Below, in pieces: positions 4,181 through 34,676 of a DNA stretch of 64,000 nt (the first letter of the stretch is position 1; each line of letters starts with the position of its first letter). The notes beneath the pieces are model-generated. The model saw nothing but the letters and a program-made list of their open reading frames with translations, was not told the DNA's origin and did no database searches. The DNA lies in the NCBI GenBank assembly GCA_900318465.1, contig ONKQ01000012.1, forward strand, positions 58,507 to 122,506, in the 5' to 3' direction. A program made the position numbers and the translations under genes. The DNA is from an uncultured Bacteroidales bacterium (GTDB taxonomy: Bacteria > Bacteroidota > Bacteroidia > Bacteroidales > F082).

Positions 4181-4975
4181 TTATAAACTTTTGTTTTCCA
4201 ATCCGATTATTGAGGCATTGTCGGTTGCGGTTGTTTCTTTTATGGTGATGATGGCTTCCTTGAATCCGAAGGTTTTGAAGATGTTGCTCATTTTCTCAAT
4301 GCCGTATTTGTTAGCCTTTTCGAGGATATTCTCGCTCATGGCATGGTCATACATTGTGATTTTGCCTCGGCTGACCAATTCCGAAATGCTCTCTTCGTCC
4401 CAATAGTTACCATCGCGGTGGAAGAACTCTATGTCGGAGGGGTTGATGATGATGTCGAAGATTTCGGCCTCGGGAAGCGTGGCATAGAGCGTGTCGTTTT
4501 GGATCTTGAAATCGTCCTCGGTCAGTTTTGAGAAATTCAGGCCTGCTCTAATTTTTCCTTTGGCGATAAGGACAATCTTGCCAATTTCAGTTGAATCAAT
4601 TTGAGTTCCCACCTCTGTCTTACCCAATCCCAATTGCCTTTTGTACCAATTGTCGCTTTTTTTGTAAACCTTACGCTCCTTGTACTTGTATTTGGTATCT
4701 TCGATGACCAATTCTTCATAGAAACAAGCCGTTGTGAACTCGGCTATTTTCTTGATTTCCTTAACCAAATTGGTGGTTTTTTCGATTTCAAGTTTCCTAT
4801 TGGCGAATCCGATGTTGAAGTGGAAGGGGTTGATGAGGAAAATGAAAACGAAAGCGAAGACAAGAACGGCGGTGGCAATCAAAAATAAAGGCCTTGTTTT
4901 GAATAAGTTAAAGCCGTCCTTGTTTGGTTTGGCTTCCTTTTGGACAGTTTTCTTACCAGTAGTTTTGTTTTCCAT
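4181..4975 (-). CDS. DUF4230 membrane protein, 264 aa
   Basis: Lys-rich cytoplasmic start (about 28 residues), one membrane helix (LFLIATAVLVFAFVFIFLI, about 30-48), then an extracytoplasmic DUF4230 domain. Family-type features are IVLIAKGKIRAGLNFSKLTEDDFKIQ, TLYATLPEAEIFDIIINPSDIEFF and the C-terminal helix where the chain re-enters a basic, amphipathic region (EKMSNIFKTFGFKEAIITIKE). The family is of unknown function. It lies two bases after another DUF4230 gene (4978-5529), so the two probably work together at the envelope, one as a bitopic membrane protein and the other as a lipoprotein. Confidence 0.8.
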   Translation of the reverse strand: MENKTTGKKTVQKEAKPNKDGFNLFKTRPLFLIATAVLVFAFVFIFLINPFHFNIGFANRKLEIEKTTNLVKEIKKIAEFTTACFYEELVIEDTKYKYKERKVYKKSDNWYKRQLGLGKTEVGTQIDSTEIGKIVLIAKGKIRAGLNFSKLTEDDFKIQNDTLYATLPEAEIFDIIINPSDIEFFHRDGNYWDEESISELVSRGKITMYDHAMSENILEKANKYGIEKMSNIFKTFGFKEAIITIKETTATDNASIIGLENKSL

Positions 4976-4977
4976 AG

Positions 4978-5529
4978 TTATTCGAATTTTATAGTGATGA
5001 CTTCAAATCCTAATTGTGTGAGTAATACTTTGAAGAAGCCTTTGGCGTTGTTTTCGGCATCTTGCAAGATGCCCATGTTGGGAATGTCTTCTCGTATGGC
5101 ATTCTCGGCTTGGATTTTGAGGTCGTTTGTTTCTTCTATGGTGAATTCTTTTCTCGCACCTGATATTTCTGAAAAGGCGACATGAATCTTTTCTGGTGGC
5201 ATGTTGAATGACAGCACCTTTGCTCTTGGAAGCACGACAGAAACAGTCTTCTCCTCCTTGTTGAAAGTTACGTTGTTCATTGAAAACTCTTGCATGTCGA
5301 TACCCGCTTTGATGTAAGCCACGCTGTTGAAAATGATTTTTCTTTCACCATTTTTGTACCATTTGGGGTCGTTGGCCTTGATGATTTTGGTTACGGTGTA
5401 TTCCACTGTTCCTAATTCGGCCATAGTTTCAAGTCCCATAATTCTTTTGTTCAACGAATCTTCTTCTGGCTTGCACGAAAACATACTCATCAGCGCAAGC
5501 CCACATATTAATATGACTAATTTCTTCAT
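4978..5529 (-). CDS. DUF4230 lipoprotein, 183 aa
   Basis: Signal peptide with probable lipobox (LALMSMFSC, Cys about residue 19), then a DUF4230-type domain: ELGTVEYTVTKIIKAN, KIIFNSVAYIKAGIDMQEF, TVSVVLPRAKVLSFNMPPEKI and the C-terminal helix DAENNAKGFFKVLLTQLGFEVITIKF, equivalent to the end of the neighbouring DUF4230 protein. It should be a lipid-anchored paralogue of the product of 4181-4975. Function unknown; operon with flanking genes. Confidence 0.8.
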   Translation of the reverse strand: MKKLVILICGLALMSMFSCKPEEDSLNKRIMGLETMAELGTVEYTVTKIIKANDPKWYKNGERKIIFNSVAYIKAGIDMQEFSMNNVTFNKEEKTVSVVLPRAKVLSFNMPPEKIHVAFSEISGARKEFTIEETNDLKIQAENAIREDIPNMGILQDAENNAKGFFKVLLTQLGFEVITIKFE

Positions 5530-5560: not shown

Positions 5561-5875
5561 TTAGCGAAGTGTCCGAATTACAGCACCAGTTTTGGCATTT
5601 CTTAATTCTGTGGTTCCTGCTTTCCTACTGACGGCGAGTGTTCCATTGTCGCTCCATCGGGCATCGATTGCATCTTTTAATGGGATGGTGCGCAAAACGC
5701 CGAAACCTGGAATCTTAAAAACTTCCACTCCAACATTCTCCACGGTGAGAGCAAGGAGGTTTTCTTCTGAATTGATGTTTGCTGAAAGCACGCCTTTTTT
5801 CATCATTTGTCTGACGGTTCCGCCTTTTTCGTTCTTGATGGTGACTTTGTCTTTTTCTGCTATTGCTACTAACAT
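5561..5875 (-). CDS. Hypothetical protein with WD-like beta repeats, 104 aa
   Basis: No signal peptide. The sequence reads as short beta strands with propeller-like spacing: AIAEKDKVTIKNEKGG, ISEENLLALTVENVGVEVFKI-like strands and ARWSDNGTLAVSRKAGTTELRNAKTGAVIRTL, the last resembling a WD40/quinoprotein blade. At 104 residues it could form only a partial propeller or oligomerise. First gene of the five-gene minus-strand set; its start lies about 50 bases downstream of structured RNA copy A and about 270 bases from the predicted promoter. Function unknown. Confidence 0.6.
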   Translation of the reverse strand: MLVAIAEKDKVTIKNEKGGTVRQMMKKGVLSANINSEENLLALTVENVGVEVFKIPGFGVLRTIPLKDAIDARWSDNGTLAVSRKAGTTELRNAKTGAVIRTLR

Positions 5876-5925
5876 GATATTATGATTTTGAAGTTGGTTT
5901 TCGTTTGCTTTCGGGCATAAAGATA

Positions 5926-6074
5926 GCGTGAATCTCTTGTCTGATCCTCAGGTTTCCACGCCCGTACTTCGTACAAATCAATCCACGCTACACATTGTAG
6001 CGCGGACTGACCTATCCTTGAAGTACAGCCTTTCGGCTAAAGTGGAAATTGAGGATCAAGAACGGTCTGTCCGC
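5926..6074 (-). ncRNA. Structured RNA element, copy A (leader of the DUF4230 operon)
   Basis: Same architecture as 33632-33786. Plus-strand coordinates of pairs: composite helix TGATCCTCA (5942-5950) and TTTCCAC (5953-5959) with GTGGAAA (6042-6048) and TGAGGATCA (6050-6058); 7-bp hairpin CGCTACA/TGTAGCG (5986-6002); CGGACTGACC (6003-6012) with GGTCTGTCCG (6064-6073), one mismatch; GCGTGAAT (5926-5933) with ATCCACGC (5981-5988), whose single mismatch becomes a G-U pair if the minus strand is the RNA. Conserved unpaired words are CCTTGA and TCAAGAAC. A TATCTTTG promoter at 6143-6150 would transcribe it on the minus strand as the 5' leader of the operon starting at 5875. Confidence 0.7.
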
Positions 6075-6142
6075 TTTTCAGTATGTCTTATTTTTCTTTT
6101 CTTCTATTTCGATAAATGCCTTTCTTTTGCTTGATTACGGCA

Positions 6143-6150
6143 CAAAGATA
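6143..6150 (-). promoter_or_regulatory. -7 promoter element (TATCTTTG) for structured leader and DUF4230 operon
   Basis: TATCTTTG on the minus strand with an AT-rich upstream region. Transcription would start near 6135 and give a leader of about 260 nt that contains copy A of the structured element. Confidence 0.6.
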
Positions 6151-32983: not shown

Positions 32984-33214
32984 TCATATCTTTTTACAAA
33001 TAAAAGACCAACCATTAGTGCCATATATGGTATTTAATTTGTCTTGCAACTCCGAACAATTTTTGACATTTTCCTCTTCGGTATTCCAATACGAATCTCC
33101 ATCAGCAGATCCATGATGATAATCCTCACATTTGCAAGTTTTACTTTTACTACAACTTGAATTTATAAGACCTACCGCCACAAATGTCAAAATAATGAAG
33201 AACATCTTTTTCAT
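32984..33214 (-). CDS. Small lipoprotein, 76 aa
   Basis: Signal peptide and lipobox LINSSC (Cys21). The mature part is Cys-rich (SKTCKCEDY, VKNCSEL, SFICKK), with Asp/Glu/His in between, so disulfides are possible. No family recognised. Promoter at 33277-33284. Region 33285-33375 holds nothing that I can support. Confidence 0.65.
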   Translation of the reverse strand: MKKMFFIILTFVAVGLINSSCSKSKTCKCEDYHHGSADGDSYWNTEEENVKNCSELQDKLNTIYGTNGWSFICKKI

Positions 33215-33375: not shown

Positions 33376-33606
33376 TTACGGTTTTTGGTTTTCCCAATGG
33401 TCAGAATAGACTTTAAAGAAGTTGCAATCCATTATGTCACAAAGCCTTGTAAGGATTTCAGTATTTATCCATCGGCACTCGAAAAGATGATAGACATTTT
33501 GCCGCGAGCAACACAATTTTCGGGCAAGCCAAGCCACCGTCCGCTCCTGCCGGGCGAGTTCTTCCTTAATAAGGTGTCCGATATGTGGTGCTTCCTGCGT
33601 GGCCAT
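33376..33606 (-). CDS. Small helix-turn-helix protein, 76 aa
   Basis: Start at 33606 (MATQEAPHIGHLIKEELARQERTVAWLARKL) is preferred over a frame open to 33720, which would read through structured RNA copy B. HTH region: RTVAWLARKLCCSRQNVYHLFECRWINTEILTRLCDIMDCNFF. Small HTH proteins with VAWLAxKLxCxRxNVY are frequent in Bacteroidota. Function unknown; a DNA-binding regulator is likely. Its ATG lies 25 bases after the U-run that ends copy B, so expression could depend on that element. Confidence 0.75.
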   Translation of the reverse strand: MATQEAPHIGHLIKEELARQERTVAWLARKLCCSRQNVYHLFECRWINTEILTRLCDIMDCNFFKVYSDHWENQKP

Positions 33607-33631
33607 ATTCGTGAAATTTGGATATAAAAAA

Positions 33632-33786
33632 GCGTGGAATTCATTCCTTGCTTGAACACCGGGTTTCCACGCCCACACATCTAACAAGTCATTCCACGCC
33701 GTACAGAAATACGGCGTCAATAACTTGGCCTTGATGTGTTCCCTCCGAGAAGAACAATGTGGAAAATGGTGTTCAAGAACCAGTTA
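33632..33786 (-). ncRNA. Structured RNA element, copy B (leader of small HTH gene)
   Basis: Plus-strand coordinates of pairs: CTTGAACACC (33651-33660) and TTTCCAC (33664-33670) with GTGGAAA (33759-33765) and GGTGTTCAAG (33768-33777), 17 bp in all; CGCCGTA/TACGGCG hairpin (33697-33716); TAACTTGG (33721-33728) with CCAGTTA (33780-33786), one bulge; GCGTGGAAT (33632-33640) with ATTCCACGC (33691-33699), perfect. On the minus strand the last helix is followed by TTTTTTATA, a terminator. The word GCGTGGAA occurs twice on that strand (also at 33666-33673) and both can pair with the same 3' arm, so alternative folds compete. Same architecture as copy A (5926-6074) with covarying helices. Confidence 0.72.
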
Positions 33787-33885
33787 CAAACGCTATTTTG
33801 CCTTTATTATATTTCGAAATAGTTTAATTACTTAATTACGTTGATTTTTAAACATTTACTATTATCAATGAATTTCATTTCGCCC

Positions 33886-34476
33886 TTATCTCTCAAGGAC
33901 ATCCAGCAAATCAAAATACATATACCTTGTTTTCATTGGCATTGGCAGACCCGAATTTTTGGCTTCTTGTTCTTCGTTAGAGAAAAGGTATCGGAAACCA
34001 TTCTTTTCATAGAAACCTAATGCACTTTTCACGTTATAAGAATCAACAGCAAGATAACGACAACCCGTCTTATTATCTGGCTGCACAAACCATCTTTTGA
34101 TAAAATCCATCAATTCTGTACCAACACCTTTGCTCGCATAATCCACATTGACACCTAAACGGCCAATCAATACAGCAGGGTAGCGACGCATTTGCTTCTC
34201 TCGAGGAATAGCATTATTTATTTTTTTCTTGCGGCTATTAGGCAGTTGGTCAACACGCACACTATCGTTTGACACAGTAAAAGCACAAAGAATAATGGCA
34301 GGATTGTCATCCAACAAATAGCAATAAGTCTTTCCAAGCAATTTCTCTGCATAGTTGGAGGAATCTTTCATAAAAAACTCGTCCAAATCGGGATTGCCAC
34401 AGGAAAACAATCGACTTGAATCGATGATTTCGCGGGTCAAAATGCGAAAAGTGCCGTGTTCTGCCAAAAAGCCCAT
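33886..34476 (-). CDS. GNAT acetyltransferase toxin-like protein
   Basis: 196 residues, GCN5-related N-acetyltransferase with the acetyl-CoA loop VDYASKGVGTELM (about 118-130), then YLAVDSYNVKSALGFYEKNGF. N-terminal DSSRLFSCGNPDLDEFF resembles TacT/AtaT-type toxins that acetylate aminoacyl-tRNA. Encoded 3 bases after a 52-residue antitoxin gene. Toxin role is inferred from the operon. Confidence 0.82.
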   Translation of the reverse strand: MGFLAEHGTFRILTREIIDSSRLFSCGNPDLDEFFMKDSSNYAEKLLGKTYCYLLDDNPAIILCAFTVSNDSVRVDQLPNSRKKKINNAIPREKQMRRYPAVLIGRLGVNVDYASKGVGTELMDFIKRWFVQPDNKTGCRYLAVDSYNVKSALGFYEKNGFRYLFSNEEQEAKNSGLPMPMKTRYMYFDLLDVLER

Positions 34477-34479
34477 ACA

Positions 34480-34638
34480 TCAATTTAATTGAGCCTTAGA
34501 CATCATCCTCTCAAAGTCTTCTTGGGAAAGAGCCAATTCAATCGTATGAGGATTGCGCTCTACAGCTTCTGCTTCCTCTATAAAACGTTCTGCATCAATG
34601 CCTGTCAAAACAGGGATAGGTCTAATTTCTAAAGCCAT
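34480..34638 (-). CDS. Small antitoxin partner of the GNAT protein, 52 aa
   Basis: Sequence MALEIRPIPVLTGIDAERFI, then EEAEAVERNPHTIELALSQED and a C-terminal FERMMSKAQLN. Preceded by a strong Shine-Dalgarno AAGGAG, 8 bases from the ATG, which is unusual in this phylum. The N-terminal PVLTGIDAERFIEEA motif is seen in short proteins encoded before GNAT toxins in gut bacteria. DNA-binding is not obvious. Confidence 0.7.
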   Translation of the reverse strand: MALEIRPIPVLTGIDAERFIEEAEAVERNPHTIELALSQEDFERMMSKAQLN

Positions 34639-34668: not shown

Positions 34669-34676
34669 CAAAAATA
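34669..34676 (-). promoter_or_regulatory. -7 promoter element (TATTTTTG) for the GNAT toxin-antitoxin pair
   Basis: TATTTTTG on the minus strand 30 bases upstream of the antitoxin ATG. Confidence 0.6.

Follow-up and report, generated by a model that had tools for sequence, protein, structure and literature searches.

Attenuator-like RNA leaders with two mutually exclusive folds in Bacteroidia

Transcription attenuators of the amino-acid (trp) type have four leader segments, in which pairing of segment 2 with segment 3 excludes both 1:2 and 3:4, and a U-tract comes after the 3:4 helix. Transcriptional riboswitches and protein-controlled antiterminators (of the T-box, ANTAR and LoaP/UpxY types) place an antiterminator, or processive control, in the leader. 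Bacteroidota dominate the human gut, and to our knowledge few RNA switches are known in this phylum. Among the described candidates, the Flavo-1 motif was found computationally in Flavobacteriaceae and overlaps several leaders (PMC9723704, accessible part), and HMP2_4078 and HMP2_4205 are palindromic candidate RNAs that occur mostly in Bacteroidetes, the latter a predicted terminator near TPR genes (PMC8040213, accessible part).

The element described below occurs in two copies, A and B, in the window, by which we mean the whole 64,000-nucleotide stretch of DNA from an uncultured Bacteroidales bacterium that was analysed. Both are present in the window sequence where a first-pass annotation had placed them. 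That they belong to a family of attenuator-like leaders is, as anatomy, well supported; that A and B are cis-acting RNA leaders working like a transcription attenuator is the reading we prefer, with a probability of about 0.72 on the sequence comparisons reported here.

Parts of the element in the window

The element has four segments that can pair in two mutually exclusive ways. In fold 1, segment 2 pairs with segment 3 within a long hairpin, P1-P5, in which the clamp helices P1-P3 have their 5' arms between segments 1 and 2 and their 3' arms between segments 3 and 4. In fold 2, segment 1 pairs with segment 2, to which it is complementary, and segment 4 (in class I, AGCAAG...ATTCCACGC) pairs with its complement in segment 3 (GCGTGGAAT..CTTGTT), giving a helix of about 15-22 bp with interruptions. 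Since segment 4 leads into a U-tract, fold 2 resembles a terminator. Much of the anatomy had been anticipated in the first-pass annotation, which described two adjacent stem-loops (in our reading, the 1:2 and 3:4 hairpins), a small hairpin between them (P5) and a composite helix of 16-17 bp joining the two loops (P1 plus P2); its wording, a kissing arrangement or mutually exclusive folds, was thus right. What the present analysis adds is that segment 4 ends in a U-tract and that the family is multi-copy and extends well beyond its own genus. Most of the unpaired words said to be kept do recur in other copies.

All features of the two copies given here lie on the minus strand. Copy A spans 5920-6081 and matches the covariance model R1 with 125.5 bits. 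It is probably transcribed on this strand from its own promoter; a promoter had been predicted upstream, and a Bacteroidetes -7 box, TATCTTTG, is found at 6143-6150. A GACATA box (6082-6087) stands immediately before segment 1 (6055-6075), whose duplex with segment 2 has an energy of -32.4 kcal/mol. There follow the 5' arms of P1, part of the hypervariable clamp (6050-6059, with the 3' arm at 5942-5950), and of P2 (6042-6048, with the 3' arm at 5953-5959), segment 2, which forms the 5' strands of P4 and P5 (5996-6022), segment 3, which forms their 3' strands (5972-5992), segment 4 (5926-5940) and a U-rich tract, TATCTTTATG, that is without four T in a row (5916-5925). The first gene below copy A encodes 104 aa with no Pfam family at E 0.01 (5561-5875), and the second is a DUF4230 gene with a lipoprotein-like N terminus (4978-5529). 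Of the five genes below copy A that were proposed to form one operon, two match DUF4230, and these lie side by side (window 4181-5529).

Copy B spans 33626-33800 (R1 match of 170.9 bits) and is apparently transcribed behind a toxin-antitoxin-like operon with a GNAT gene, and not from a promoter of its own. The operon that runs into it has a TATTTTTG box upstream (34669-34676) and comprises a 52 aa ORF, antitoxin-like by position only (34480-34638), and a co-oriented GNAT acetyltransferase gene (33886-34476). Within the element are segment 1 (33773-33794), the 5' arms of P1 (33768-33777, 3' arm 33651-33660), P2 (33759-33765, 3' arm 33664-33670) and P3 (33733-33739, 3' arm 33675-33681), segment 2 (33710-33735), segment 3 (33681-33703), segment 4 (33632-33653) and the U-tract TTTTTTA (33625-33631). 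The next gene encodes a small Cro/C1-like HTH protein of 76 aa (33376-33606), and after it comes a lipoprotein-like gene (32984-33214). The proposed reading as a leader fits copy A and also copy B, where the gene for the small HTH regulator comes first and has its start codon 18 nt past the U-tract.

Both copies fold far better than shuffled sequences, and by z-score the minus strand does not fall behind the plus strand: the values are -8.2 (minus) and -6.7 (plus) for copy A and -5.2 and -5.1 for copy B, and in no case was any of the 200 shuffles as good.

Covariation of both sets of pairings

Model R1 was built from 9 copies, and its 88 matches from 81 sources form an alignment that, being fitted to the model, is biased towards fold 1. 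In this alignment 95.1% of the P1-P5 cells are paired, double-sided changes are found in 41 of the 44 pairs, and the covariation score of 0.546 compares with 0.196 +- 0.005 for shuffled and at most 0.086 for slid versions. The sense-strand cells hold 365 G-U against only 51 A-C, and this excess marks the window's minus strand as the form under selection. A structured RNA on that strand with covarying helices, as proposed from A and B, is therefore borne out over the 88 aligned copies: homologues exist, and their helices covary.

The pairings of fold 2 covary too. At least 4 consecutive T are present at the model end in 85 of the 88 copies (the exceptions are copy A, L101 and L103), and in diverged copies the paired words change together, as in GCGTGGTC/GACCACGC, GCGTGA/TCACGC, CGTGAGC/GCTCACG, GGGCG/CGCCC and GGCGC/GCGCC. 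Partners were permuted among 25 diverged representatives, a set that includes L105, L127, L241, C30 and C42. The mean energy with the sequence's own partner was -13.4 kcal/mol for 3:4 and -20.6 kcal/mol for 1:2, compared with -10.4 and -15.7 kcal/mol after permutation, and 0 of 20,000 permutations were as good in either case, counts that are not strict probabilities because the representatives are related. For 3:4, the own partner outdid the average of the other partners in 24 of 25 (L105 fails), and for 1:2 it did so in 22 of 25 (L202, L241 and L105 fail); set against the tails of other sequences, it was top-ranked for 3:4 in only 6 of 32. Smaller runs with 21 and 23 representatives, without L105, had a similar outcome. 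A further permutation test of the tail plus linker was set aside, because in several sequences its stretch of 40 nt extends into P1/P2.

Two further classes have the same arrangement. Over 20 class III loci, permuting 1:2, 2:3 and 3:4 gave 1, 0 and 0 of 20,000 as good. Over 18 class II sequences, each fold pairs 83-84% of the cells and does better than slid versions; for class II, RNAalifold, unprompted, also returned the P5 hairpin together with 1:2 and the linker half of 3:4. An antiterminator helix and a terminator helix that exclude each other are thus both conserved, with class II fold 2 above shuffles in only three of five measures: of 500 shuffles, 197 were as high in the count of pairs changed on both sides and 458 in that of further pair types. 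When fold 2 was forced in 7 sequences, with pseudoknots left out, it was disfavoured by 9-20 kcal/mol relative to fold 1, and it would therefore need to win kinetically. A terminator scan limited to loops of 3-8 did not report the copy B site.

The switching words are kept, and the clamp helices change together with their partners. Among the 88 copies there are 75 different P1+P3 combinations. Seven pairs of copies have both flanks alike. In three of them (L055/L080, L078/L097 and L123/L126) the flanks are 88-100% identical and the core 65-74%, with 8, 15 and 11 doubly compensated pairs; in the remaining four the core is 89-100% identical. The simplest cause of such core swaps would be gene conversion between paralogues, confined to the shared repeat. 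Over 79 of the 88 copies, the linkage of core and flank by global identity is weak (Spearman 0.25 upstream, 0.20 downstream), and a P1 or P3 core is shared by 4 and 3 of 176 pairs within a genome and by 109 and 85 of 2,905 pairs between genomes; this contrast is weak, and we do not claim that equal clamps are avoided inside a genome. L055 1488-1664 and L080 4056-4235 are orthologous, with 110 identical nt upstream, and their cores are different yet self-complementary.

The clamp raises the question why the sequence of the helix, and not its pairing, changes so fast. A quite improbable reading is that P1-P3 serves as an address: a terminated leader released by one copy carries both arms and would be able to invade another leader only if the arms of the two agree. 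Each copy, or each set sharing a clamp (as C30 and C43 do in the window's own genome), would then be a private RNA channel, and the swapping of cores between loci would change which operons are switched as a group.

Distribution, transcription signals and neighbouring genes

In the window's own genome, blastn finds 8 places for copy B and 2 for copy A (queries included), and R1 finds 10 copies. Counting that genome, R1 has matches in 31 of 60 relatives and, across the order, in 25 of 295 genomes (17 of 177 genera). The class II model, R2, matches 41 of 296 genomes of the class, own included (28 of 166 genera), and 16 of 198 genomes of the phylum, 3 of the 16 outside the class. With filters off, R1 gives weak full-length matches, of 19.6-21.2 bits, in 4 of 10 class II loci.

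Four plasmid records match the HTH protein, all at less than 60% identity. The two that were read, from Parabacteroides distasonis (NZ_OY725762.1) and Bacteroides finegoldii (NZ_OY725942.1), have HTH-gene leaders with the 1:2 and 3:4 layout; R2 matches the former (18.2 bits; E 4e-4, the search being small) and has no clear match to the latter (E 0.49). The element is present in Parabacteroides and probably in Bacteroides too. Parabacteroides is a cultivable gut genus, and the switch is therefore directly testable. Copy B had no blastn match in collections of plasmids, phages and E. coli, and the HTH protein had none in phages. Three viral-contig matches to an 18-base pattern lie inside coding genes and were discarded as chance.

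The box TANNTTTG is found within -120 to +5 in 50 of the 88 copies, mostly at about -55 to -105; mononucleotide shuffles gave a mean of 3.6 and a maximum of 10, and the other strand gave 15. Of the 38 copies without a box, 33 have a co-oriented ORF ending at most 200 nt upstream, often 35-90 nt off, compared with 24 of the 50 with a box, where some of the ORFs are short mechanical ones (Fisher p 0.0002). ACATA occurs within -30 to +10 in 66 of 88 copies (shuffles: mean 11.3, maximum 22); it is conserved just 5' of segment 1, including window 6082-6087. A conserved leader peptide was not found: considering ATG starts, only 10 of the 50 promoter copies have an ORF of at least 4 codons that begins before segment 1 ends.

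The nearest downstream ORF of at least 60 aa is co-oriented in 80 of the 88 copies and opposite in 4, and 4 have none. An HTH match starts between -20 and 200 nt downstream in 38 of 88; when three HTH proteins were checked against Pfam, one was above the curated cut-offs of HTH_26 and HTH_3 and two were below theirs. Among the other downstream ORFs, at most two per copy, a signal-peptide-like start by a simple hydrophobicity rule is seen in 61 of 105, compared with 11 of 57 upstream ORFs. Pfam families downstream include BspA-type LRR (8), subtilase (3) and radical SAM (3) among 76 scanned of 121 references, the HTH ORFs, duplicates and some second genes having been left out. Upstream, where 46 of the 57 ORFs were scanned (one duplicate and ten short, doubtful or distant ORFs were dropped), they include HEPN (15), DUF1016 and DUF2442 (3 each), and Fic, GNAT, RelE, AAA-ATPase and PDDEXK_2 (2 each).

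The HTH gene is also found behind the second class. Of the 11 HTH paralogues in the own genome, 6 follow class I elements, 3 follow class II elements (L202, L204 and L206) and 2 follow neither. Among 40 HTH places without a strong class I match, 22 have a class II leader, as judged by eye and motif, one has an R1-type leader (L207, where the contig ends) and 17 have neither; one of the 22 (L238) has a weak R1 match (E 1.4e-4). For class III, 20 loci were read; of 10 downstream proteins scanned, 5 match the TonB-receptor plug and 1 a sigma factor. Ten nearest upstream ORFs of this class, all on the opposite strand and picked as HTH-like or small, were also scanned; 7 have an HTH-family match with E <=0.01, and in 5 of these cases the match exceeds a curated cut-off. 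The plug genes follow the leaders L254, L256, L259, L261 and L267, some with a divergent small HTH gene opposite.

Arrays in which toxin-antitoxin-like genes, element and HTH gene are repeated were seen at L049 4811-9181 (three elements), L051 3189-4670 and L050 4724-6464 (two each). Judged by its neighbours, the L049 locus appears to be that of window copy B with extra units inserted, and the HTH frame after its third element is open, with no stops. At L052 3853-4023 a weak, divergent copy precedes two genes, the first without a Pfam match and the second with what we read as a methyltransferase-like motif.

Proposed mechanism, alternatives and known systems

In the attenuator reading, transcription would enter from the element's own promoter or from the upstream operon, and segments 1 and 2, emerging first, could pair. 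If 1:2 holds, segment 3 would be left free for segment 4, and the resulting helix with its U-tract would stop RNA polymerase before the downstream gene. If instead the clamp P1-P3 zips up, 2:3 would form and exclude the terminator, allowing read-through into the HTH gene, genes for secreted proteins, or both. Fold 2 would accordingly be the terminating form and the outcome would be regulated, presumably by a trans-acting factor and not by a translated leader peptide; our guess is an RNA-binding protein at the ACATA/segment 1 region.

It is unlikely that the element instead controls translation, with fold 2 or a pseudoknot hiding the downstream start region and the U-tract as a spacer. Two distances would suit this: in 36 of the 38 HTH copies, -3 to 45 nt separate the model end from the start of the profile match, and in copy B the start codon lies 18 nt past the U-tract; however, segment 4 and the U-tract persist where the first gene is farther off, for example at 37-113 nt, and at seven class III loci the first ORF of more than 90 aa lies at 226-678 nt, with shorter ORFs nearer in some. 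Very unlikely, in our judgement, is a free-standing, trans-acting small RNA with its own promoter and terminator and with only incidental neighbours. The promoter box in 50 of 88 copies and the distant first gene at several class III loci are what one would expect of it, but the nearest downstream ORF is co-oriented in 80 of 88, the same HTH family comes first in 38 of 88, and a plain small RNA needs no two mutually exclusive folds.

Integron attC sites carry an R'' box, RYYYAAC, and an R' box, GTTRRRY. An integron-like recombination site or mobile hairpin that folds as single-stranded DNA is the least probable of these readings, for although the element is multi-copy, patchily distributed, placed behind toxin-antitoxin-like genes and arrayed in L049, L051 and L050, with cores that differ between constant flanks in three of seven pairs, a co-oriented Phage_integrase-family ORF ending 82 nt upstream of one class III element (L258 3013-3600) and a 'PD-(D/E)XK nuclease family transposase' match in 2 of 46 upstream ORFs, its promoter boxes and U-tract sit as transcription needs, RYYYAAC in the first 60 nt occurs in 0 of 88 copies, GTTRRRY in the last 60 in 19 and both in 0, no integrase or Y1 transposase lies near class I copies among the 25 of 26 and 25 of 34 families listed, and gene conversion between paralogues would produce just such swaps, confined to the shared repeat. 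A possible transposon end was checked only through these families of the nearest genes.

The attenuator-like family is large and apparently undescribed. Rfam 15 gave 0 matches at the gathering threshold in the window and in 10 class II/III loci, so that the comparison proposed in the first-pass annotation matched no family; laxer scans of 6 and 4 loci gave 5 and 1 weak matches, none over an element. Flavo-1, which we take to be RF01705, is absent from the Rfam matches in the window, in 6 class I or divergent loci and in the 10 class II/III loci. HMP2_4078 and HMP2_4205, compared by description only, differ from the element in that the accessible part of PMC8040213 describes no switching or HTH link for them. 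Nor is the element described in the literature searched, which included the accessible parts of PMC8040213, PMC7366714 and PMC9723704 and had subscription papers, preprints and supplements outside its scope.

With riboswitches and the T-box, ANTAR and LoaP/UpxY systems the element shares the location of control in the leader; it differs from them in having no Rfam match and in that its strongest conservation is in the switching segments. With trp-type attenuators it shares the four-segment exclusion scheme and a U-tract after 3:4; it differs from them in that it has no conserved leader peptide (a short ATG ORF in 10 of 50 promoter copies), its genes encode HTH regulators, secreted proteins and receptors, and an extra hypervariable clamp, P1-P3, encloses 2:3. 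The element combines covariation support for two competing folds with a position ahead of regulators, secreted proteins and TonB receptors.
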